From Lyngbya sp. HA4199-MV5 (GTDB lineage: Bacteria; Cyanobacteriota; Cyanobacteriia; Leptolyngbyales; Leptolyngbyaceae), in assembly GCA_019359375.1 (NCBI GenBank), contig JAHHHL010000007.1, forward strand, positions 121,819-185,818: a stretch of 64,000 nt of DNA. Reading direction: 5' to 3'. Shown here piece by piece: positions 1 to 12,959 of this stretch (position 1 is the stretch's first letter; the number at the start of each line of letters is the position of its first letter). The position numbers and the translations under genes are program-made. The notes under the pieces are model-generated. The model worked only from the letters and a program-made list of their open reading frames with translations. It did not search any database and had not been told where the DNA came from.

Positions 1-1330
1 TACCAGCGAGAGGTAAACGCGCCATTGCAGCGGCTTCGACGGTAAGTGCTACCAGGTCTTCACGCTCCAGGTGATGGATGTTTTGCTTCCCACACGCACG
101 GGCGATCGTGGTCAATTCCATATTCAGCGTTTGCAGGTAGTTCTTTACTCGTCGCGCACCCACTTCCGGTTCTAGCCGCTTTTCCAGGATGGGATCTTGA
201 GTGGTGACACCGACAGGACATTTTCCCGTATGACAGTGATGGCAGTAACCAGGAGCGGTGTCGATCGCCGCATAATCCTCAACCGCCGAATGGTGTTCGC
301 CCCGTTGAATATAGGTTTCGCTGTTGCAGCCCAGGGCGATGAGAATGCCCTGTCCAATGGAAACGGCATCGGCACCCATTGCGATCGCTTTGGCTACGTC
401 TGCACCTGTCCGAATCCCACCAGACACAATCAATTGCACGTTGCCTTTCATATCCAGATCTTCGAGGGCATCGACTGCCTGACGCACGGCTGCCAGTGTG
501 GGAATGCCCACATGTTCAATAAAGACCGATTGGGTTGCTGCCGTCCCGCCCTGCATGCCATCGACCACAATCACATCCGCACCGGAATGCACCGCCAATT
601 TCACATCATTAAACGTGCGTGAGGCTCCCACTTTCACATAAATGGGTTTTTCCCAATCGGTGAGTTCTCGCAGTTCCTGAATTTTGATGGTGAGGTCATC
701 GGGACCTGTCCAGTCGGGGTGACGGCAGGCAGAGCGTTGATCTACACCTTCCGGTAGGGTTCGCATTTCTGCCACGCGGGGATTAATTTTTTGCCCCAGC
801 AGCATTCCACCACCACCGGGTTTTGCGCCCTGACCAATGACAATTTCGATCGCATCTGCCTTTCGCACATCATCAGGATTAAACCCATAGCGAGACGGCA
901 AGCATTGATAGATCAGGGTCTTGGATGATTGCCGTTCTTCGGGTGTCATGCCGCCATCGCCTGTGGTGGTAGATGTGCCAACAGCCGTTGCCGCCAGTCC
1001 CAGTGCTTCCTTCACGTTGGCAGACAGGGAGCCGAAACTCATGCCTGCGATCGTGATGGGAATCTCCAATTCGATGGGTTTTGTGGCGTACCGAGTCCCC
1101 AAGATGGTTTTGGTGGTGCATTTTTCCCGGTAGCCTTCCAGAGGATACCGCGAGAGGGATGATCCCAAAAACACCAGATCATCAAAGTGAGGTAAACGTC
1201 GCTTGGCACCCAGCCCACGAATTTCATACAGACCGTGCGCCGCTGCATTTTGAATGTAGCTAATCATGCGGCTGTCGTAGCCCCACGATGCTTCGAGCGA
1301 AAGCGGTTGATGTGGTTGAGCGTCGTTCAT
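1..1330 (-). CDS. FMN-binding glutamate synthase family protein (GlxD / MgsC-like), 3' end runs off the window
   Basis: Manual reverse-strand translation from the ATG at ~1330: MNDAQPHQPLSLEASWGYDSRMISYIQNAAAHGLYEIRGLGAKRRLPHFDDLVFLG...GMSFGSLSANVKEALG...GQGAKPGGGGMLLGQK...VDGMQGGTAATQ...GADAVSIGQGILIALGC...HHCHTGKCPVGVTTQ, typical of glutamate synthase FMN domains. Not in the ORF list because no stop lies in the window. Confidence 0.9.
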   Translation of the reverse strand, partial: MNDAQPHQPLSLEASWGYDSRMISYIQNAAAHGLYEIRGLGAKRRLPHFDDLVFLGSSLSRYPLEGYREKCTTKTILGTRYATKPIELEIPITIAGMSFGSLSANVKEALGLAATAVGTSTTTGDGGMTPEERQSSKTLIYQCLPSRYGFNPDDVRKADAIEIVIGQGAKPGGGGMLLGQKINPRVAEMRTLPEGVDQRSACRHPDWTGPDDLTIKIQELRELTDWEKPIYVKVGASRTFNDVKLAVHSGADVIVVDGMQGGTAATQSVFIEHVGIPTLAAVRQAVDALEDLDMKGNVQLIVSGGIRTGADVAKAIAMGADAVSIGQGILIALGCNSETYIQRGEHHSAVEDYAAIDTAPGYCHHCHTGKCPVGVTTQDPILEKRLEPEVGARRVKNYLQTLNMELTTIARACGKQNIHHLEREDLVALTVEAAAMARLPLAG

Positions 1331-1397
1331 GGTCATAATTCGTGTGTGCTTTTATCTGGTTTATTGACACGACATACGTTGTCGGAATGATGCCATC

Positions 1398-1856
1398 TCA
1401 AAGAGAGTCTTTTAATAACATTGCTGGATGAATTGGGACAATTTCTTCACTCATATAGCGACCGAAATCAGCAGTATTCAGTGTCAGAATATGAGTGATG
1501 CGATTGACATTCATCACTGCAACGAGACGGGCATCGTGTACCTGAACACCAGAAACACTAAAGGTGACGACTAATCGCCGCCATTCAGCGTAAATTTCTG
1601 GGACATCTGGCAGTACGGGAAAGAGTCGCTCGATGAGATGTAGGAGGCGATTAGCATCGGTAGGAGTAAGCCCAAGTCCATTTCGATCAGCGGGTCGCGT
1701 CACTACATTCCAGAATTCAGCACAATTTTGAGGCACGATCTGTAACGTGCAGTTTGCCTGTTTGAGTATTCGTATTGCCGTTCTTACTCTGGGGTGAAGG
1801 GGATGAGTGCGATCGGCGAACCGTAGCAAAATATTAGTATCCACAAGATAGTTCAC
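1398..1856 (-). CDS. PIN-domain (VapC-like) toxin
   Basis: MNYLVDTNILLRFADR N-terminus and C-terminal ILTLNTADFGRY, PIN fold pattern; directly downstream of a small antitoxin-like ORF. Confidence 0.8.
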   Translation of the reverse strand: MNYLVDTNILLRFADRTHPLHPRVRTAIRILKQANCTLQIVPQNCAEFWNVVTRPADRNGLGLTPTDANRLLHLIERLFPVLPDVPEIYAEWRRLVVTFSVSGVQVHDARLVAVMNVNRITHILTLNTADFGRYMSEEIVPIHPAMLLKDSL

Positions 1857-1859
1857 TGG

Positions 1860-2174
1860 TTAGAGATGCTCCTCGTAAATCCCTGCACGGCTCACGGCAT
1901 AATCTGAGAGTAACGACAGCTTGGGGTCAACACATCTGCTGAATTCATCTGTAAGTTGATTTGTAAGGCTTTCAAAGTCTTGATTGCTAATGGTTGCATC
2001 TAGTTCATTAGTGTTTAATGGGGCTGTGTGCTGTTCTTGCCAATTGACAAATTCGATAAAGTTTAGAACCTCGTGTAATCGCGTTTGAGGCAAAGACTGT
2101 AACCTAGTGACAATGTTTTCAATGAGTGGTTCCATAATGGCTGTTTCCATAAATGTGTTCGAGGCTAAAAGCAT
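1860..2174 (-). CDS. Putative antitoxin partner (DUF2281-like); start may be 2150 or 2135
   Basis: Small ORF (MEPLIENIVTRLQSLPQTRLHEVLNFIEFVNWQ...) ending 3 nt before the PIN toxin start. Confidence 0.6.
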   Translation of the reverse strand: MLLASNTFMETAIMEPLIENIVTRLQSLPQTRLHEVLNFIEFVNWQEQHTAPLNTNELDATISNQDFESLTNQLTDEFSRCVDPKLSLLSDYAVSRAGIYEEHL

Positions 2175-2266
2175 TGATAGATCTTCTTCTAATACAACTA
2201 AGCATATAAAGAAGCCATTTTTTCTACCTTATTTCTATCTTAAACAATTCGATCGCAAGAGAATCA

Positions 2267-2947
2267 TCAATACTCCTGATTGGCATCTGCATTCCAGTGA
2301 TAAAGCTGCTTGGCAGACGCAATGCGTTTGAATTCCTTTGGTTCGTAAGAAAACCCTGCTTTGGCAAGTAGCTCCCCAACTGCTTCATAATCGGTATCAG
2401 TCATAGGTTCCATCTGAGCATCGGCACCCAGGGATTTGATGGAACCGCGTACATAGATAATGGCTTCGTAGAGAGAATCGCCGAGGGCATCACCTGCATT
2501 GCCGCAAATTACGATGCGTCCTGCCTGTGCCATGAAGGCGGAGAAGCTGCCCACGCTGCCACCCACCACAATATCGGCTCCTTTGAGGGAAATCCCACAG
2601 CGCAGGCTGGCATCGCCATCAATGATGAGCAGTCCCCCCTGGGCAGAGGCTCCAGCAGAGACAGAGGCAAAGCCCTTGACGTAAACTCGTCCTGACATCA
2701 TGTTTTCAGCAACACCGGGACCTGCATTGCCCAGAATGGTGACGTTTGCCAGCTTGTTCATACCAGCCGCGTAGTAGCCTGCATGACCCGCAATTTCCAC
2801 ATCCACAGGTGCATCTAAGCCCACTGCAATATTATGGGCACCGTTGGAATTGAGAATGTGGATGGATCGCCCACTGGAGGGTTGATGGAGAAAGCGGTTA
2901 ACTTCACGCAAGGGTGTTTGGGCGAGGTCGAAGGTTACACCGTCCAT
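2267..2947 (-). CDS. GXGXG-motif glutamate synthase alpha C-terminal-like subunit (GlxC / MgsB-like)
   Basis: Beta-helix type repeats: NIAVGLDAPVDVEIAGHAGYYAAGMNKLANVTILGNAGPGVAENMMSGRVYVKG...GGSVGSFSAFMAQAGRIVICGNAG. Confidence 0.85.
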   Translation of the reverse strand: MDGVTFDLAQTPLREVNRFLHQPSSGRSIHILNSNGAHNIAVGLDAPVDVEIAGHAGYYAAGMNKLANVTILGNAGPGVAENMMSGRVYVKGFASVSAGASAQGGLLIIDGDASLRCGISLKGADIVVGGSVGSFSAFMAQAGRIVICGNAGDALGDSLYEAIIYVRGSIKSLGADAQMEPMTDTDYEAVGELLAKAGFSYEPKEFKRIASAKQLYHWNADANQEY

Positions 2948-3843
2948 ACATACATTTCCTCTGGTGCAGGTTCGTAGATGTGGGCGTGATTGATGTGAGG
3001 CAGATGGGCGAGCGATCGAAACTCAGAGGCGATCGCCACATAATCATCGGTTTCAGCCACTACGGCAGGCTTGCAGGCAAAGGCATCACGTACCAGCGCT
3101 AATTGATTGGCGGTGCCCATGAGAAAGGTGTAGAAACCATCCAACGCTTCAAAGCCTTTCTGAATGGCTTCCTTCAAATCATCTCCTTCTTGCATCCGCC
3201 ATTCGAGAAAACGACAGGCGGCTTCGGTATCGTTGTCGGTTTCAAACTGAATGCCGTGATGTTCAAGCTTGCGGCGAATTTCGTAGGGGTTAGACAGGGA
3301 GCCGTTATGCACCAGGCAGAAGTCTTCACCAGCGGTAAAGGGATGGGCGTGAGCAGGTGTGACTGCCGATTCGGTTGCCATGCGAGTATGTCCTACTAGA
3401 TGAGAACCTTGCAGATGTTTGAATTGGTAGCGATCGGCGATGCTGGTCGGACTTCCGGCATCTTTATACAAGTCGATCGCCCGTCCGGTAGACAAGAGAC
3501 GGATATGTGGATAGTGGTCTTGCAGCCATTGCTTTACCACATTGGGAGCCAGATCAGCGGTTAGCACTGCTTGATTCCCATGCACCTGAAGGTCAGGAGT
3601 TGTCTTGAAATGGGTTTGAAATGCCTGTGTTAGTTCCAACCAGTTGAAGTTTCCACCTGTATGAATGCTGCCAGAGTAAAGGCTATATTTGCGCTGATGA
3701 TCAGGAAGCGTTTCGGTGAAGATCGCAAGCCCAGCAGAATCGGATCCGCGTTGGCTCATGCCAATGAGCATGGGCACCATTAGCTCACCGAGGGACGATC
3801 GCAGTGATGGATTTTTGATGAGTAGTCCGACGATGCCACACAT
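2935..3843 (-). CDS. Class II glutamine amidotransferase (GlxB / MgsA-like)
   Basis: N-terminal MCGIVGLL nucleophile Cys, MSQRGSDSAG, GHTRMATES..., HNGSLSN; overlaps the next gene by 13 nt. Confidence 0.9.
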   Translation of the reverse strand: MCGIVGLLIKNPSLRSSLGELMVPMLIGMSQRGSDSAGLAIFTETLPDHQRKYSLYSGSIHTGGNFNWLELTQAFQTHFKTTPDLQVHGNQAVLTADLAPNVVKQWLQDHYPHIRLLSTGRAIDLYKDAGSPTSIADRYQFKHLQGSHLVGHTRMATESAVTPAHAHPFTAGEDFCLVHNGSLSNPYEIRRKLEHHGIQFETDNDTEAACRFLEWRMQEGDDLKEAIQKGFEALDGFYTFLMGTANQLALVRDAFACKPAVVAETDDYVAIASEFRSLAHLPHINHAHIYEPAPEEMYVWTV

Positions 3844-3885
3844 AGATGGTTGTTAGTTGTTAGTTGTTGGTTGTTAGGGCATCTC

Positions 3886-3918
3886 AGACCTCCGAGTTCT
3901 TGGAGAACTCGGAGGTCT
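3886..3918. repeat. Perfect inverted repeat, 15-bp arms with 3-nt loop (AGACCTCCGAGTTCT TGG AGAACTCGGAGGTCT)
   Basis: Direct reading; lies just 3' of the glnT/gmaS-like stop. No T-run on the minus strand, so more a dispersed hairpin repeat than a canonical terminator. Confidence 0.85.
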
Positions 3919-3927
3919 TTACAATTT

Positions 3928-5256
3928 CTAGAAAAATTCCAAGTACCGCTGCACTTCCCATTCAGAGACGTGGCGCATATATTCGACCCATTCCATGCGC
4001 TTGAGGGTAATGAATTCGGTGGCAAGAGGTCCGAGGGCATTGGTGATGATGGAATCGGCTTCGAGGGCATCGATCGCCTCTTTCAAGCTTTGCGGTAGAG
4101 TTTGAATGCCTTTTTCCTGAAGGTTGACTTCAGAAAGATCATAGAGATTAATGTTGTAAGGATCGCCTGGATCAAGTTCGTTTTCGATGCCATCAAGTCC
4201 AGCGGCGATCGCCACTGCTGCTGCCAGATAAGGATTACAGGAACCATCGGCAAGGCGAAATTCGAGCCGTCCGCCGGGAATGCGAACCATGCTGGACCGG
4301 TTGTTGTCGCCATAGGTGATGTAAGCGGGTGCCCAGGTTGCGCCGCTGAGCGATCGACCAACCACCAAGCGTTTGTAGGAGTTGATGGACGGCGCACAGA
4401 TGGCAGTCAGGGCAGGTGCATGAGCTAATAATCCACCGAGGAAGTGATACGCGAGTTTGGACAATCCTAAATGACGAGGATCGCTGTCATCGGCAAAGAG
4501 GTTAGAATTGCCATCCGAGATCGACATATGCATATGCATTCCATTGCCCGATCGATTGGCAAAAGGCTTGGGCATGAAAGTGGCAAGCAATCCCATCTCT
4601 TTGGCAATCTCAGAGGCAGCCATCTTGAAGAAAATGTAGCGATCGGCAGAAGTCAAACAATCCGTGTAGGTGTAATTGATTTCAAACTGTCCATTTGCGT
4701 CTTCATGGTCGATCTGATACACGTCAAAACCCGCGATTTGCAGGCTTTCCACCAGCTTCTCAATGAACGCACGACTGCGGGATAGACCTTTGTAGTCGTA
4801 GCAAGGCTTTTCCAATGTATCGGTAGCATCGGCAGGGAAAATGCGACCTTGAGCATCTTTTTGCAACAGGGCAAATTCCGGCTCCAGCCCGGTGTAGAAC
4901 GTCCAGCCCTTTTGTTTCAGCCGTTCTAGCTGTTGCATCAACACAAACCGCGCATCGTAGGGATAGGGTTCGCCATCCACATGACCAACGCAAACCATCC
5001 GCGCAAACCCCGGCATCCAGGGAACAAGGGTTAAGGTGGATGGATCACCCACTGCTATGAAATCGTGACTATTGGGCTGTTGTGCCAACCCCCACACGGC
5101 AAACCCGGCAAACCCTGCACCTGGATCGAGAATGTCATCAAAATGGGAGGCAGGTACAGCTTTGGTCTTGGCAGTACCGTGCATATCCACAAACTGCGCC
5201 AGGACGAACTTAACGTGATTATCTGCTAAGAATTTTTTTGCCGTTTCTGGGGTCAT
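3928..5256 (-). CDS. Type III glutamine synthetase family (GlnT; candidate gamma-glutamylmethylamide synthetase GmaS)
   Basis: [39 protein letters not shown]...[15 protein letters not shown]...[20 protein letters not shown]...[23 protein letters not shown]. The ORF-track N-terminus upstream of 5256 is heptamer repeat and probably untranslated. Confidence 0.85.
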
Positions 5257-5456
5257 GGGTGTTTCTGGGGATAGTGGTTGGTTGCTGGAGGTGAAAGGCA
5301 GGAGGCAGGGTGTAGGGTGTGGGGTGTAGGGTGTGGTCAAGGCTATTTTGAAATAAGGCAGGAGGCAGAGGGCAGGAAGCAGAAGGTAAGGGAGTGAGGA
5401 GTAGGGAGTAGTGGAAGCAAAATGTGAAACTCAAAATTTTTATTCTTGATCCTTTT

Positions 5457-6113
5457 TCATCCCTCATCCCTCATCCTTCCTTCCACCCCCACCACTCCTC
5501 CTCCTATTTCTGCCACGATCGCGCTTAACGTTTGCCACAAATATACCCCAAAGGTGCCATCACACCAGATACGGCAGAAGGATTGTCCATTGCGTTCTCC
5601 AGGAAGAATAATCACACTCACGCCTATCATTGAGGTGAGGAAAACGGGGCGTTCCATCAATGATAAAGCACGAACGTTAACGCTACAGGTTTGCAGCAGG
5701 AGTTCGTTGACTTCTGAGCCACAGAGGACGATCGCGGCATCCTGACGCAAGATGGGATAAACTCTGGCGGGTGGTTGCTGGCAATTCTCCATCAAGCGTA
5801 GGGCAAGTTGGCTATGCAGACTGTCTTCGATGAAAAATTCGGTTAAACCAAGGCGGGCAATGATACCGCAATCCGGGAGGGGATTCCAGGTGTTGGGGCG
5901 ATCGGGCGTTGTAATGCCTTGACTCAAGAGCCAATCGGCGGCGTTGGCTCCTTTGACTCCAAAGCGGGTCAGGCAAGAAACATCTGCAATGCCTAGATGG
6001 GTGGCGATCGCACTGTCATTGGATGTTTCCATCAAGGTGGGCATGCCATATAAATCGCGCCACGATCCATCAAGAGATTGAAGTATGTCGTGCATGGGGC
6101 TGAGGCGAATCAT
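5457..6113 (-). CDS. Sarcosine oxidase gamma-like subunit (SoxG / MgdD-like)
   Basis: Position directly after the SoxA-like gene with ATGA overlap; SVGKANAADWLL-like (GVKGANAADWLL) and GVYLWQTLSAIVAE features. C-terminus runs into a GGATGAG heptamer array. Confidence 0.75.
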   Translation of the reverse strand: MIRLSPMHDILQSLDGSWRDLYGMPTLMETSNDSAIATHLGIADVSCLTRFGVKGANAADWLLSQGITTPDRPNTWNPLPDCGIIARLGLTEFFIEDSLHSQLALRLMENCQQPPARVYPILRQDAAIVLCGSEVNELLLQTCSVNVRALSLMERPVFLTSMIGVSVIILPGERNGQSFCRIWCDGTFGVYLWQTLSAIVAEIGGGVVGVEGRMRDEG

Positions 6114-9100
6114 ACTGCAATCTCCTCTCGTTTTGGCATGGCTTCTTTCTGGCGGAGGTTTTCGGGATCGTAGAAGGGGGTGGGAGTGATAGTTGCCGTC
6201 ATGAAAGAACCATCAAAGCGACGAATGGAAAGGCGATCGCCCACGTTTGCCAGTTCAGGTTTCACATATGCCAAGCCAATAAAACGCTTCAGGAAAGGAC
6301 TGAAGGCGATGCTGGTAATGCGACCTGCAATATCACCGCGATCGATGATTAAATGACATTCTTGTGGTGGATTGCCTTGAAAAGATTCCAGCACAAACCC
6401 CACCAGCGTCTGTTTTACCGGACGTTTTGCCATACTTTGCAGGCTCCGTTGACCGATGAAAAATGGTTTGTCCATTTTCACTGCCCATCCCAGATTAGCT
6501 TCTCGCGGAGTGGTCAACCCGTCGGTATCCTGTCCGACAATGAGGTGACCTTTCTCCAGTCGCAACAGCCGTTGGGCTTCGACCCCAAAAGCTGTAATGC
6601 CATACTCTGCACCCGCTTCTAGTAAAGCATCCCACAGGGCGATCGCGCGGTCTGCTGCTACATGGATTTCGTAACCCCATTCGCCAACAAACCCAACGCG
6701 CATTAGGAGAGCAGGAATCCCGGCAACGCTTGTCTGACGGACTCCGAGATAGGGAAAGGCAGCACTGGATAAATCTAAATTTGTGAGCTTGGTGAGAACA
6801 TCACGAGCATGAATTCCAACCAGATTGATCGCCGATCGTGCGCCTGTGGTGTTCACAATGCCGCAATCCATCTGCCACATGGTATTGAGGCGTGATAATT
6901 CACGGTAGATAGTGGCGGCACCGGATGTTGTGGTTGTGAAATAGAAATGTTCGCTTCCAAAGCGGGCAATGACCCCATCGTCAATAATGACACCTGTTTC
7001 ATCGAGCATCAGGGCATAGCGAGACATACCAACTTTGAGATTGGTGTAGCGTCCGGTGTAGACTCGCTCTAGAAACTCAGCCGCCTCAGTTCCCCGGATT
7101 TCCAGTTTGCCCAATGTGCCTACATCAATGATGCCAACTTGTGTGCGAACGGCGATCGCTTCTGCTTGAATACACTCCTCACGGCTTTTACCCGGTTGCG
7201 TATAATATTCGGGTCGTCGCCAGTGTCCCGCCAGCATTAATTTTGCGCCCAAGGCAATATGACGACTATGTAAAGACGTTTGGCGGTCTGGTGTAAACCC
7301 ACGCCCTGCCAGATGGGAAAGCGGCACGGGATGAAAGAATGGTCGTGCGGTGGTGGTGCCGACTTCACCGGGAGTTTTGCCTGTAATTTGTGCCAGAATT
7401 CGCAAGGCGTTCATGTTGGAATGTTTGCCCTGGCTGGGTCCCATCCCTACAGTGGTGTAGCGTTTGAGAAGCTCAATGTTATCGAAGCCTTCTTGGGCAG
7501 CGTTGTAGAAATCTTTGAGTTGCAGATCTTCATCGAAATCCACAAAATTTTTGTTGTGGGGATGGGGGACGATCGACCAGGGATGGGATTGACTCTCAAC
7601 TGCGCTCCCAGGAGAGTTGTCGTGTAGTCTCATTTGGGCTTCGTTGTTAACCTTGTCCGGGGGACTTCCCCCCGGTCCCCCGCGATGTGGGGTCCTAACT
7701 CCCCCACGCCCCCCGAAAGGTGGTACTTGTTCCAGTTCTAGTCTCTTGTAGACCGAATCAATTTGGGTAAGCTGAAGGTTATTACACCTTGAAAGAGAAG
7801 GATCAGGGATGGTATTGGAAAAGCCTAGATAAGCTGCTGCTTCCATCCCAGCCCGATAGCCATCTGCCATTTTCCGCTCAAACTCGAAGATGCCATTGAC
7901 CCGACCGCAGGCAAAAACACCCTCAGGCAAAACATCTGGAACAAATTGCTGCAAGGGGTCATCAAAGTGCATCTTAGCACCTGCTTGATAGAGCAAATTT
8001 GCTGCTGGTGCCCAACCCACACTCATCAGAATGCCATCACAGGCGATCGTGCGCTTCTGTTCTAATTGCGGTTTATAGTCACTAAACGGACAAATTACAA
8101 CACTGGAAATTCCATCGCCTGCGGGATTTCGTGTTGCTTCGTAGATACAATGTCCTCTGAAGATGGGAATGTTTTGTGATCGCGCTACTTGCGTGAGATC
8201 CGTTGCTGTAGGAGTGGGGCGCAGATCGACGATCGCCATCACGATTACGCCATGCGCTGTCAAATCCAATGCCGCACGATAGCCATCACTGTTTGCTGCC
8301 AGGACTACAGCCCGCTGCATGGGTTTGACTGCATAGCGGTAAATAAGTCGCTGCGCCGCCGATGCCAGCATCACACCAGGAAGATCATTATTATGGAAGA
8401 CGGCTGGCTGTTCGTAGGCACCGCTGGCAACAATGACAGCTTTAGCACGCATTTTGGAGAGTCGATCGCGATCGACCAGTGGAATCCAATGATCGGCGTA
8501 ATAGCCTGCTGCCTGGGTTTCGGTATAGAGGCGAATGTTGGGATAGGAGGCGATCGCGTCCAACATTTCACCTGTTTTTTCGACACGAGATGGATTCCCG
8601 CCGCGCTGATACGTGCTTGATCCACCTGCTTGTGCATTCTCATCTACAATGACAACTTCTGCACCTGTATCTGCGGCTGAAAGTGCGGCTGAAAGTCCCG
8701 CTATGCCCGCGCCGACTACCAACACATCACAAAAGTCATAGCGTTTGGGAGTACGAATGTAGGGCGTTGATGGATCGCCTTCACCCAGCCCTGTCATGCG
8801 GCGAATGAGGCGTTCCCAGAAAGGGAAGAGTTTTTTATCGAGAAAGGCTTTGTAATAGAAACCAACGGGCAAAAACGGTGAAAAGAAATTGAGGACGCTG
8901 GCACGATCGCCCATCATGCCACCCATTGTATTAATTGCCGTGAGGGACATTCCCGCTTCTAACGGCGTAACATCTGCTCGCACATTTAACACCTGACCAG
9001 ACTGCATCAGCGTATTAATATCATGGTTCGCAAAGCTCAACAGCCCGCGTGGACGATGGTATTTGAAGCTGCGTCCTAAGATTCGCTGTCCTGCTGCCCA

Positions 9101-9220
9101 GAGCGCACTACTGATGGTATCGCCCTGATACCCCCGAAACAACATCCCTTCAAACGTGAAGTCGATCGGCTGCGTGCGATCGATCCATTCACCCGGTACA
9201 GGCGGCAGTCGTTGACTCAT
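6110..9220 (-). CDS. Sarcosine oxidase alpha-like subunit (SoxA / MgdC-like) with interdomain low-complexity insertion
   Basis: N-terminal 2Fe-2S_4-type domain (DFTFEGMLFRGYQGDTISSALWAAG), FAD-binding VVGAGIAGLSAALSAADTGAEVVIVDE, C-terminal GCV_T domain (EIRGTEAAEFLERVYTGRYTNLKVGMSRYALMLDETGVIIDDGV). Confidence 0.93.
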   Translation of the reverse strand: MSQRLPPVPGEWIDRTQPIDFTFEGMLFRGYQGDTISSALWAAGQRILGRSFKYHRPRGLLSFANHDINTLMQSGQVLNVRADVTPLEAGMSLTAINTMGGMMGDRASVLNFFSPFLPVGFYYKAFLDKKLFPFWERLIRRMTGLGEGDPSTPYIRTPKRYDFCDVLVVGAGIAGLSAALSAADTGAEVVIVDENAQAGGSSTYQRGGNPSRVEKTGEMLDAIASYPNIRLYTETQAAGYYADHWIPLVDRDRLSKMRAKAVIVASGAYEQPAVFHNNDLPGVMLASAAQRLIYRYAVKPMQRAVVLAANSDGYRAALDLTAHGVIVMAIVDLRPTPTATDLTQVARSQNIPIFRGHCIYEATRNPAGDGISSVVICPFSDYKPQLEQKRTIACDGILMSVGWAPAANLLYQAGAKMHFDDPLQQFVPDVLPEGVFACGRVNGIFEFERKMADGYRAGMEAAAYLGFSNTIPDPSLSRCNNLQLTQIDSVYKRLELEQVPPFGGRGGVRTPHRGGPGGSPPDKVNNEAQMRLHDNSPGSAVESQSHPWSIVPHPHNKNFVDFDEDLQLKDFYNAAQEGFDNIELLKRYTTVGMGPSQGKHSNMNALRILAQITGKTPGEVGTTTARPFFHPVPLSHLAGRGFTPDRQTSLHSRHIALGAKLMLAGHWRRPEYYTQPGKSREECIQAEAIAVRTQVGIIDVGTLGKLEIRGTEAAEFLERVYTGRYTNLKVGMSRYALMLDETGVIIDDGVIARFGSEHFYFTTTTSGAATIYRELSRLNTMWQMDCGIVNTTGARSAINLVGIHARDVLTKLTNLDLSSAAFPYLGVRQTSVAGIPALLMRVGFVGEWGYEIHVAADRAIALWDALLEAGAEYGITAFGVEAQRLLRLEKGHLIVGQDTDGLTTPREANLGWAVKMDKPFFIGQRSLQSMAKRPVKQTLVGFVLESFQGNPPQECHLIIDRGDIAGRITSIAFSPFLKRFIGLAYVKPELANVGDRLSIRRFDGSFMTATITPTPFYDPENLRQKEAMPKREEIAV

Positions 9221-9492
9221 ACTGCCTCCTCACCACACTGATTCTCACCCAGAAGATAGGTACGCAGAATTTCATCGGTAGTGGTATTGCGATCGACTAG
9301 AAACCAGGTATTGCTCGGCGTGTGGCACCACCATTCCTGCTTCACACCCGCTGCCCCATTGCGGTTAAATACATAATCTGCCCATGCATCATCATCTACT
9401 GATTGTGGATCAGGCATGGGACGCACTTCGCCGCCATATGCAAATTCAGAAATGGGGCGCATACCGTTAATTGGACATGTTAGAAGTTTCAT
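9217..9492 (-). CDS. Sarcosine oxidase delta-like subunit (SoxD / MgdB-like)
   Basis: LLTCPINGMRPISEFAYGGEVRPMPDP...WADYVFNRNGAAGVKQEWWCHTPSNTWFLVDRNTTTDEIL; ATGA overlap with the SoxA-like gene. Confidence 0.92.
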   Translation of the reverse strand: MKLLTCPINGMRPISEFAYGGEVRPMPDPQSVDDDAWADYVFNRNGAAGVKQEWWCHTPSNTWFLVDRNTTTDEILRTYLLGENQCGEEAV

Positions 9493-9651
9493 GTGATTGA
9501 TTAGCTATCAGCGGTCAGCTTGAGAGTTTTGAGCTTTGAGTTTTGAGTTAAACCTCTGCGCCTACGCGTCTCTGCGGTTTTCTAACTTCTGCCTCCTGTC
9601 CTCTACCTTCTCTCTTGCAGCCAGCAAAACAGTAAAGCAATGAATTGTATG

Positions 9652-9975
9652 TTACTCAGGCAGATGAGATTCATTAGGCTTCCAACTAAGAACTTCTGTA
9701 AAATGCTCGACGATCGGAAACGGCTCATAAAAGTGATGAAGCAATTGTTTCCATTTCTGATAGGTCGGTGATTCTCGAAAGCCGATCGTATGATCTTCCA
9801 ATGTATTCCATCTCACTAACAGCAAATATTTTCCAGGCACCTCCAGACATTGATGGAGTTCATGCGATCGATAACCGGGCATAGACGCAATTAGAAGAGA
9901 AGCTTCCCTAAACGCCGTTTCAAACGCCTGCTCCAAACCCCTTTTAACCATCAACATCGCCACCTCAAGCACCAT
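9652..9975 (-). CDS. Antibiotic biosynthesis monooxygenase (ABM) domain protein
   Basis: Short ferredoxin-like-fold pattern EAMLMVKRGLEQAFETAFREA...GYRSHELHQCLEVPGKYLLLVRWNTLEDHTIGFRESPTYQKW. Confidence 0.8.
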   Translation of the reverse strand: MVLEVAMLMVKRGLEQAFETAFREASLLIASMPGYRSHELHQCLEVPGKYLLLVRWNTLEDHTIGFRESPTYQKWKQLLHHFYEPFPIVEHFTEVLSWKPNESHLPE

Positions 9976-10093
9976 AGCCTTTATCCTTAATATCTTTCGC
10001 CCTCTACCTTTTACCGCTTCTGTTCATCATCTTTCTAACAACCAACAACTAACAACTCCTTCTGCCCTCTGCCTCCTGCCCTCTGCCTTCACC

Positions 10094-11335
10094 CTAATGT
10101 CCAACCGATGCCGCACCCTTTTCACCTACCAATGCATAGTTCGCAAACCGATCGAGGGAAAAGTCTTCAATCAATTCATGCGTGCGATCGTTCGCTACGG
10201 TAAATGCCATCGTTTTACCCGCCACAGGTGTGGCTTTGAAGCCCCAGGTGCCCCAGCCGGAATCTAAATAGAACCCGTCGATCGGGGTCTTTCCCATAAT
10301 GGGTGCAAAGTCGGGTGTCATATCTGCCATGCCTGCCCATTGCCGTACTACTTTGACGTGCGACAAAAAGGGAAAGAGTTCCAGCATGTGAGCCGCTAAA
10401 CCTTCCACAAAATCGAGGGTCGATCGGGTAGAATGCAGCTCATAGGGGTCAAGTGAGGCACCCATCACCAATTCTCCGCGTGCGGTTTGGCTGACATACA
10501 CATGCAAACTGCCAGAGACAATGATGGGATCGAGCCACGCCTTCATGGGTTCGCTCACCATTGCCTGTAGAGGATGAATGTAGAGGGGCGATCGCAGCCC
10601 TACCATATCCAGCAATCGGGGTGTTGATCCAGCCACCGCGCACAAGACTCGTGAGGTGGAAATACTACCGCGTGATGTTTCCACACCTGTTATCCGACCA
10701 GATTTTACATGGGTGCCCAAGACCTCTGTTTGTTGATGGATTTCCACACCACGCTGATCTGCCCCGCGACCGTAACCCCATGCCACTGCATCATGACGGG
10801 CAATGCTTCCGGGTGCATGGTAGAGCGCGCCGAGAATGGGAGCGTGTCCACCACAGGTAATATCCATCTGAGGACAGGCTTCTTGTACGGCATCGGCATC
10901 CACCAGCTCGCTATCAATCCCAAAGTGCTTGTTAACTTCCGACCGCCAGCGCATCGTCCGCACCGAGGCATCGGTATGTGCCAAGGTGAAGTGTCCTCGT
11001 GTGGAATAGAACACATTCAGGTCAAAATCCTGTGATAAGTCCTGCCACAAACGCACCGATTCATCGTAGAACTTCACGCCTTCGGGAGTAAGGTAGTTAG
11101 AACGAATAATCGTTGTGTTGCGCCCCGTATTGCCACCACCGAGGTAGCCTTTCTCCAGCACTGCGACATTTTTCATCCCATGATCGCGTGCCAGATAGTA
11201 GGCAGCAGCCAACCCATGCCCACCCCCACCGATGATTACCGCATCGTAGCTTGACTTCAGGCGATCGGGCTGCCGAAACATCCGAGGTTCGGGGTATTTC
11301 TTAGAGAAACCAAATTTCAGCAGGCGTAAGGGCAT
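10094..11335 (-). CDS. Sarcosine oxidase beta-like subunit (SoxB / MgdA-like)
   Basis: DAVIIGGGGHGLAAAYYLARDHGMKNVAVLEKGYLGGGNTGRNTTIIRSNYL...GFYLDSGWGTWGFKATPVAGKTMA. Confidence 0.93.
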   Translation of the reverse strand: MPLRLLKFGFSKKYPEPRMFRQPDRLKSSYDAVIIGGGGHGLAAAYYLARDHGMKNVAVLEKGYLGGGNTGRNTTIIRSNYLTPEGVKFYDESVRLWQDLSQDFDLNVFYSTRGHFTLAHTDASVRTMRWRSEVNKHFGIDSELVDADAVQEACPQMDITCGGHAPILGALYHAPGSIARHDAVAWGYGRGADQRGVEIHQQTEVLGTHVKSGRITGVETSRGSISTSRVLCAVAGSTPRLLDMVGLRSPLYIHPLQAMVSEPMKAWLDPIIVSGSLHVYVSQTARGELVMGASLDPYELHSTRSTLDFVEGLAAHMLELFPFLSHVKVVRQWAGMADMTPDFAPIMGKTPIDGFYLDSGWGTWGFKATPVAGKTMAFTVANDRTHELIEDFSLDRFANYALVGEKGAASVGH

Positions 11336-11344
11336 CGCATCCTC

Positions 11345-12205
11345 CTACCGAAACACGACGGTTTTATTACCATGCACCAGCACGCGATCCTCAACGTGGT
11401 AGCGCAAACCCCTTGCCAGCACTGCTTTTTCAATATCTTTGCCATACCGCACCAAATCTTCTACCGAATCGGAGTGGTCAATGCGAATTACATCCTGTTC
11501 AATAATGGGACCTGCATCCAGGTCAGCGGTGACATAGTGACACGTTGCGCCCGTTAACTTCACGCCTCGCTCATATGCTTGATGATATGGCTTTGCACCC
11601 ACAAAGGACGGCAAAAAAGAATGATGAATGTTGATAATACGTCCAGAGTAACGATCGCACATTTCTGGCGATAGCACCTGCATATACCGCGCCAACACCA
11701 TGACATCACCTTGAATGCTGTCAAATAAATGAGTGATCTTACCAAAGGCTTGCGCCTTCGTGATGGGTGTGACAGGCACATGATAAAAGGGGATTTCGTG
11801 CCATTCCACAAACTTGCGAAACACATCATGGTTAGAAATGATGCAGGGAATTTCCACATCCAGTTCGCCGCTCTGCCACCGTGCCAGCAGATCATACAGG
11901 CAGTGTTCCAGTTTAGAGACCAGAATCACCACGCGCTTTTTCTGTGCAGAGTCGGTAACGTTCCATTCCATTTGAAAGGACTCAGCGATCGGTGCAAACT
12001 GTGCTCGAAACGTCTCAATGCCAAAGGGAAGTGATTCCGCAAGAATTTCCTGCCGCATGAAGAACCGCTCTGCCACACGATCGGCATGATGCTGCGCTTC
12101 CACAATCCAACCCTGATGGTTGGCAACAAAGGTGCTCACGGCCGCCACAATGCCCACACGATCAGGGCAAGAGAGAGTCAGGGTGTAGTGTCTTGCAGAG
12201 GACAT
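11345..12205 (-). CDS. purU: Formyltetrahydrofolate deformylase
   Basis: N-terminal ACT domain plus SNHDVFRKFVEWHEIPFYHVPVT...INIHHSFLPSFVGAKPYHQAYERGVKLTGATCHYVTADLDAGPIIEQDV. Confidence 0.95.
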   Translation of the reverse strand: MSSARHYTLTLSCPDRVGIVAAVSTFVANHQGWIVEAQHHADRVAERFFMRQEILAESLPFGIETFRAQFAPIAESFQMEWNVTDSAQKKRVVILVSKLEHCLYDLLARWQSGELDVEIPCIISNHDVFRKFVEWHEIPFYHVPVTPITKAQAFGKITHLFDSIQGDVMVLARYMQVLSPEMCDRYSGRIINIHHSFLPSFVGAKPYHQAYERGVKLTGATCHYVTADLDAGPIIEQDVIRIDHSDSVEDLVRYGKDIEKAVLARGLRYHVEDRVLVHGNKTVVFR

Positions 12206-12326
12206 CAGATTCCTGTTGCGCGAGGAAACTATCAGTGACTATCATGCAATCTTGATTCATATATGTCAACTAATTTTCCTGCTATTATGCAAGCTAGCCA
12301 GAGCAAGACGATCGCCTGCGAGGTGA

Positions 12327-12959
12327 ATGATGGCAGAGGTGACAACGAGTAATTTTGAGCAGAGCATTACCGATCACGCTCTGGAACGGTACATTGGCAA
12401 TACAATTCGTGAACTGCGGCAGAAACATGGCTTGACGATCGCCGATGTCGCTGAACAAATCGGCATCTCGCGGGGCATGTTGTCCAAAATTGAGAATGCC
12501 CAAACCGCTACGAGTCTGGAAACGTTAGCGAAACTTGCCAGTGCGCTGGGCGTATCGTTGGCAACGCTGTTTCGCAACTACAACATTCCGGCGGGGAGTG
12601 CTCAACTGGTCAAGCAAGGTGAAGGGATGGAAGTGGTGCGCCGAGGGACGAAACGCGGACATACCTATCATCTATTGGCATATGACCAGGGACCCACAAA
12701 ACTCTTTGAGCCGTTTCTCATCACGATGGATGATGCGTCGGAAGTGTTTCCCACCTTTGAACATCCCGGCACGGAGTTTATCTACATGCTAGAAGGCGCG
12801 ATCGAATACCGTCATGGGCAATCTACCTATCGGCTCGAACCGGGTGATTCGCTCACCTTTCGCGGTGACATTCCCCACGGTCCCGAAAAGCTGATTACGT
12901 TACCCATTCGCTTCCTCGCCATCATCTACTATGCGATGCTGCCTGAAAGTGCAGAGTGA
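12327..12959 (+). CDS. XRE-family transcriptional regulator with C-terminal cupin domain
   Basis: HTH (IRELRQKHGLTIADVAEQIGISRGMLSKIENAQTATSLETLAKLASALGVSLATLF) and cupin (HPGTEFIYMLEGAIEYRHGQSTYRLEPGDSLTFRGDIPHGPE); divergent from purU. Confidence 0.92.
   Translation: MMAEVTTSNFEQSITDHALERYIGNTIRELRQKHGLTIADVAEQIGISRGMLSKIENAQTATSLETLAKLASALGVSLATLFRNYNIPAGSAQLVKQGEGMEVVRRGTKRGHTYHLLAYDQGPTKLFEPFLITMDDASEVFPTFEHPGTEFIYMLEGAIEYRHGQSTYRLEPGDSLTFRGDIPHGPEKLITLPIRFLAIIYYAMLPESAE

Follow-up and report, generated by a model that had tools for sequence, protein, structure and literature searches.

Does a cyanobacterium, an oxygenic phototroph, carry a complete route from methylamine to glutamate? 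The question is raised by one end of a 64,000-nucleotide stretch of DNA (hereafter the window) from Lyngbya sp. HA4199-MV5, part of a 186 kb contig (JAHHHL010000007.1) in a 6.9 Mb genome that is 100% complete. An earlier note on this stretch had recognised there the genes of the N-methylglutamate (NMG) pathway: gmaS for gamma-glutamylmethylamide synthetase, mgsABC for NMG synthase and mgdABCD for NMG dehydrogenase, together with purU. Our analysis leads to the same identification, by the clade of GmaS, the identity of MgdA, the domains of MgsABC and the occurrence of the same gene order in proteobacteria. The pathway is known, but the host is unexpected; the note was right as to gene set, family and likely role. 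We consider it highly probable that the locus is a functional NMG operon, acquired horizontally from a beta/gamma-type proteobacterial source and serving to take nitrogen from methylamine.

The assignment of the GlnT-like protein as GmaS was examined through structures, phylogeny and active-site residues. Among solved structures, its best relative is 9qur, a glutamate-methylamine ligase (719 bits), followed by RhGmaS (371 bits), whereas glutamine synthetases (GS) reach at most 288 bits. In a tree of 102 rows the protein lies within a clade comprising 9qur and the Methylovorus mays GmaS, to which it is 69% identical (support 99), a clade that excludes four further GS-family proteins of the genome. 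The methylamine-site and catalytic residues published for RhGmaS (K30, Y147, Q175, D177, E179, E186, N188 and R312; PMC7948447) are conserved, eight out of eight, while the Glu of the GS Glu-flap is replaced by Trp and the GS Asp50' by Ala. The protein thus stands apart from ammonia-specific GS and groups with characterised GmaS, as the note had supposed. Public annotation hides such methylamine genes because the protein also passes the cut-off of TIGR03105, 'type III glutamate--ammonia ligase' (641 bits for a cut-off of 470).

Read from the sequence, the pathway would run as follows. GmaS would condense glutamate and methylamine, at the expense of ATP, into gamma-glutamylmethylamide, which MgsA would hydrolyse, freeing methylamine inside the MgsABC complex; MgsC, with its flavin mononucleotide (FMN), would then join methylamine reductively to 2-oxoglutarate, giving NMG. 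MgdABCD would oxidise NMG to glutamate and pass the methyl carbon to tetrahydrofolate (THF) as methylene-THF. Once this C1-THF is oxidised to formyl-THF, PurU would release formate and free THF. The operon purU is the sole PurU gene of the genome, and its product is 67-77% identical to PurU within Thiobacillus/Acidithiobacillus-type proteobacterial operons, against 47% to PurU of relatives in the same family (tblastn); it is of the proteobacterial type. Most members of the sampled class possess a PurU, so here the acquired copy seems to have replaced a native gene. The presence of purU inside the operon, in an organism with no need of C1 units for growth, fits nitrogen use and not methylotrophy, and a sole, proteobacterial-type PurU agrees with a C1 unit discarded as formate and with methylamine as a nitrogen source.

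Could the same enzymes handle another short primary alkylamine such as ethylamine, or serve in methylamine detoxification only, not in nutrition? The M. mays enzyme has been used for theanine production and so accepts ethylamine, to judge from titles among the references of PMC7948447, and the cluster has neither a transporter nor an upstream demethylase. However, the GcvT-type THF domain carried by MgdC and the presence of purU fit a methyl carbon handled as a C1 unit, not an ethyl group, and the characterised operons act on methylamine, which makes these alternatives unlikely.

The four Sox-like subunits adjoin gmaS-mgsABC, and the note had placed them with Mgd proteins. MgdA shares 72-80% identity with most proteobacterial MgdA encoded beside gmaS (72% to that of M. 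mays) versus 47% to a Rhizobium SoxB-type protein, and therefore sides with MgdA, not with true SoxB; no other SoxB-like protein scores above 41 bits in the genome. MgdD matched no curated model or domain, and an orthologue 39-77% identical stands at the same place in related clusters. The MgdC interdomain linker (window positions ~7540-7740, residues about 495-560) contains a low-complexity expansion, GGRGGVRTPHRGGPGGSPP, present only in the Stenomitos/Tildeniella group. Automatic names would make of these genes a sarcosine or dimethylglycine oxidase operon, accompanied by an ammonia-type type III GS (TIGR03105, above cut-off) and glutamate-synthase fragments. The soxB, soxA and soxD models do match, and among solved structures MgdA and MgdC come nearest to heterotetrameric sarcosine oxidase. 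Yet all three scores lie below the curated cut-offs (soxA 838 of 1164, soxB 485 of 529, soxD 69 of 117 bits), and MgdB lacks the second Cys of the CxxC motif and the later Cys of Rhizobium SoxD, as does M. mays MgdB. Moreover, the clade and residues of GmaS contradict an ammonia-type GS, and gmaS and mgsABC would be superfluous for sarcosine oxidation. Together with the MgdA identities, these observations led us to reject this explanation, which we hold to be very improbable.

How widespread is the NMG operon in cyanobacteria? A first survey of the phylum with GmaS scored only four candidates per genome, and the distribution is therefore taken from MgsC surveys. Of 386 genomes sampled evenly across the phylum, 3 encode an MgsC at least 87% identical; within the order, 9 of 42 genomes do, most of the window's own genus among them. 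Orthologous clusters were found in 15 named cyanobacterial records and some further genomes, several of them ending at contig ends, with a patchy distribution that includes Tildeniella, Stenomitos, Leptolyngbya, Chroococcus, Chlorogloea, Aliterella, Microcoleus FACHB-1515, Phormidesmis, Hydrococcus and others. The order mgdABCD-gmaS-mgsABC with a divergent XRE gene is conserved in these cyanobacteria and in beta- and gammaproteobacteria, M. mays included. GmaS and MgdA each form a single cyanobacterial clade (support 96 and 97) close to the beta/gammaproteobacterial proteins, a placement indicative of horizontal acquisition; the cyanobacterial clade is weaker for MgsB (support 89) and MgsC (only 68), and the MgsA tree does not strictly recover it. 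For every gene compared, the ratio of nonsynonymous to synonymous substitution rates (dN/dS) is 0.02-0.24, with dS mostly 0.5-1.0: all are under purifying selection. This, with an order conserved across cyanobacteria and proteobacteria, argues that the gene set is not a chance assembly. Patchiness, inserts within the operon and the loss of gmaS in two relatives might suggest a silent leftover of horizontal transfer with no present function, an idea made most implausible by the intact frames, the dN/dS values, the conserved promoter block and the single cyanobacterial clades of GmaS and MgdA.

Several points nonetheless weigh against a methylamine-fed, functional operon. We found no growth, expression or enzyme data for any of the carrier cyanobacteria, and the operon itself contains no methylamine transporter gene. 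Two relatives of the same family (G060, L156:9729-18000; G400, L158:7266-18196) have the cluster without gmaS. In addition, orphan GlnT-like proteins of cyanobacteria, with no adjoining mgs or mgd genes, also have the GmaS active-site residues. Judged from sequence, these residues alone are no proof of methylamine specificity, and operon context thus carries part of the GmaS argument.

Some of these loci deserve description in their own right. In the gmaS-less clusters of G060 and G400, the gap between MgsA and MgdD measures 31 and 132 bp, respectively; G060 encodes elsewhere an orphan GmaS-like protein that has every GmaS residue and might substitute for the missing enzyme. The GlnT-like proteins of other cyanobacteria (42-47% identical) were considered as markers of further NMG clusters and discarded, as mgs or mgd genes occurred in none of 12 neighbourhoods examined; one of these genomes has a different NMG-like cluster elsewhere. 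An orphan on a Leptolyngbya plasmid (L117:10004-11311), with all GmaS active-site residues, adjoins genes for a fatty acid desaturase and an alpha/beta hydrolase, and is possibly another amide ligase. A different NMG-like cluster was seen in two other cyanobacterial genomes (L157:1458-8511 and L163:5875-16683). Its MgsABC bears iron-sulfur (Fe-S) cysteines, its regulator is a GntR protein of the UTRA type, and a single-chain DAO oxidase takes the place of MgdABCD. A GmaS-like gene adjoins the first, and the second includes an ammonium transporter and GcvT-like pieces; this cluster type may represent a second methylamine route. Caballeronia loci (L065:6979-10000 and similar) have gmaS-mgsABC without mgdABCD, with only a 28% identical DAO-type MgdA relative nearby, which suggests an alternative NMG-oxidising enzyme.

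Does the cyanobacterial NMG synthase work like that of methylotrophs? Its three subunits are present together: a class-II glutamine amidotransferase (GATase) with catalytic Cys2, a GXGXG protein and an FMN glutamate-synthase domain. MgsC carries the motif LGC...YCHHCHTGKCPVG, in which C337, C368 and C373 align with C1113, C1119 and C1124 of Mycobacterium tuberculosis glutamate synthase, the established [3Fe-4S] ligands of that enzyme. All 55 full-length MgsC of the window class in our tree have the four-cysteine pattern, among them each full-length sequence from cyanobacteria. Other residues (D, Y, W and D or similar) stand at all four positions in the MgsC of Methylovorus, Noviherbaspirillum, alphaproteobacteria and two others; the M. 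mays protein, 70% identical to the window MgsC, has lost all four. One branch with support 100 divides Cys-bearing from cluster-less MgsC, in a tree for which the motif region was removed from all rows but one before building. The window MgsC, keeping all four cysteines, lies outside the cluster-less subclass of Methylovorus and alphaproteobacteria. The Fe-S cysteines are a subclass difference, and not a defining feature of NMG synthase. Because they also occur in a more distant cyanobacterial MgsC (66-67%), the history is explained more simply by loss of the cluster in the methylotroph class.

Since MgsC keeps cysteines aligned with [3Fe-4S] ligands of glutamate synthase, an electron-fed synthase is possible, in which an assembled cluster would bring electrons from ferredoxin or another donor. 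We tentatively propose, as an idea that may well prove wrong, that cyanobacterial MgsABC is an Fe-S enzyme receiving external electrons, for instance from photosynthetic ferredoxin. GmaS and MgsABC would then be the methylamine counterpart of GS and glutamate synthase (GOGAT), making NMG directly from 2-oxoglutarate and methylamine, as opposed to the self-contained glutamate/methylamine exchange described for methylotroph NMG synthase; the Fe-S class would serve nitrogen-seeking autotrophs, the cluster having been lost in methylotroph-type enzymes. An AlphaFold model of MgsC (32-row alignment) had a mean predicted local distance difference test score of 56, too poor for use in cysteine geometry or fold searches.

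The XRE-cupin gene is divergent from the operon, and most cyanobacterial and proteobacterial loci have an orthologue next to the cluster or in divergent orientation to it. Its closest curated model is PuuR, with a score far below cut-off. A sigma-70 promoter with an overlapping inverted TTGA...TCAA element is conserved in five genomes; the XRE protein would read this element and control the operon from the divergent promoter. No NtcA-type site (GTA-N8-TAC, one mismatch allowed) occurs in the divergent promoter region.

The open reading frames, domains and gene order given in the note were all recovered (Table 1), as were its ATGA overlaps, between mgdB and mgdC and between mgdC and mgdD, and its 13-nucleotide overlap between mgsB and mgsA. 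Translation of gmaS probably begins at the ATG at 5265, not the TTG at 5340. mgsC ends 26 nucleotides beyond the window edge and is complete on the contig (453 amino acids; L006:13794-15155). It is split from mgsB by a PIN toxin-antitoxin pair, a passenger outside the pathway; relatives have other small inserts, or none, at the same site. The ABM gene was found in the Stenomitos/Tildeniella group and at two other cyanobacterial loci by neighbourhood comparison. In close relatives, the ABM gene and mgdB are separated by a short gene resembling those of low-molecular-weight phosphatases (L039:5374-5703, L037:5294-5641), which is absent from the window. Two relatives share synteny with the window in the left flank (HPF, LipB and two further genes), so the locus is chromosomal cyanobacterial DNA, which argues against contig contamination.

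Table 1. Features of the NMG locus in window coordinates, from the divergent regulator along the direction of operon transcription
Feature	Position	Strand	Basis or remark
XRE-cupin (PuuR-like) regulator	12327..12959	+	HTH_3 + Cupin_2
Operon promoter TTGACA-17-CATGAT + putative operator	12241..12269	-	overlaps inverted TTGA...TCAA element (12252-12269)
purU, 10-formyl-THF deformylase	11345..12205	-	NF004684, 438 bits
mgdA (soxB-like), NMG dehydrogenase flavin subunit	10094..11335	-	curated-model and domain matches, structure matches, identity to proteobacterial MgdA
ABM-domain protein, putative accessory	9652..9975	-	PF03992
mgdB (soxD-like)	9217..9492	-	PF04267
mgdC (soxA-like, GcvT-type THF domain), interdomain linker expanded	6110..9220	-	domain and model matches
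mgdD (soxG-like), divergent small subunit	5457..6113	-	orthologues at same place
gmaS, gamma-glutamylmethylamide synthetase	3928..5265	-	9qur match, residues, tree
mgsA, class-II GATase subunit	2935..3843	-	MCGIVG start, catalytic Cys2
mgsB, GXGXG subunit	2267..2947	-	PF01493
Toxin-antitoxin pair	1398..2174	-	PIN-domain toxin 1398-1856 (PF01850), antitoxin-like 1860-2174
mgsC, FMN glutamate-synthase-like subunit	1..1336	-	PF01645; four putative Fe-S cysteines C337, C365, C368, C373

In studies of cyanobacteria, methylamine commonly serves as an ammonium analogue that the cells do not metabolise. The one cyanobacterial paper found to name GMAS (PMC12588301) is reportedly a biocatalysis study in Synechocystis. 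Our full-text literature searches, whose coverage leaves out most subscription papers so that novelty is not proven, returned no report of the NMG pathway in cyanobacteria. Several genomes of Leptolyngbyaceae, Phormidesmis and Aliterella keep a complete methylamine-to-glutamate operon under selection. If our interpretation is true, methylamine is a nitrogen source for some oxygenic phototrophs, with a possible added sink for methylated amines. The division of NMG synthase into two classes, with and without Fe-S cysteines, was not met in the literature searched; the enzyme class is possibly distinct.

How does this operon compare with known systems? Methyloversatilis universalis FAM5 has the same eight pathway genes (gmaS, mgsABC, mgdABCD); there, deletion of mgsA and mgsB together, or of mgsC, abolishes methylamine use, and an mgdD mutant was scored as showing no growth on methylamine (PMC5023235). 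The window differs by its oxygenic phototrophic host, its added purU and XRE regulator, and a gene order unlike the locus-tag order listed (PMC5023235). The M. mays operon (L084) has the gene order and XRE gene of the window; unlike the window, its cluster showed no purU. The Thiobacillus, Dechloromonas and Acidithiobacillus operons (L052, L060, L061), for which we found no experimental study, have XRE, purU, mgdABCD, gmaS and mgsABC in the same order and an Fe-S-type MgsC, but no detected ABM protein. The glnT-glx cluster of Rhizobium johnstonii pRL11 (L118) shares mgsABC-type genes, GmaS residues, purU and nearby Sox genes with the window. However, its GmaS is only 42% identical, its MgsC is cluster-less, and dimethylamine monooxygenase genes are attached, a family (PF11927) with no match in the window genome. 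Lastly, the GATase, GXGXG and FMN domains of the GOGAT large chain correspond to MgsA, MgsB and MgsC, the window enzyme being split into three proteins, with one extra conserved cysteine and no NADPH subunit in the operon.

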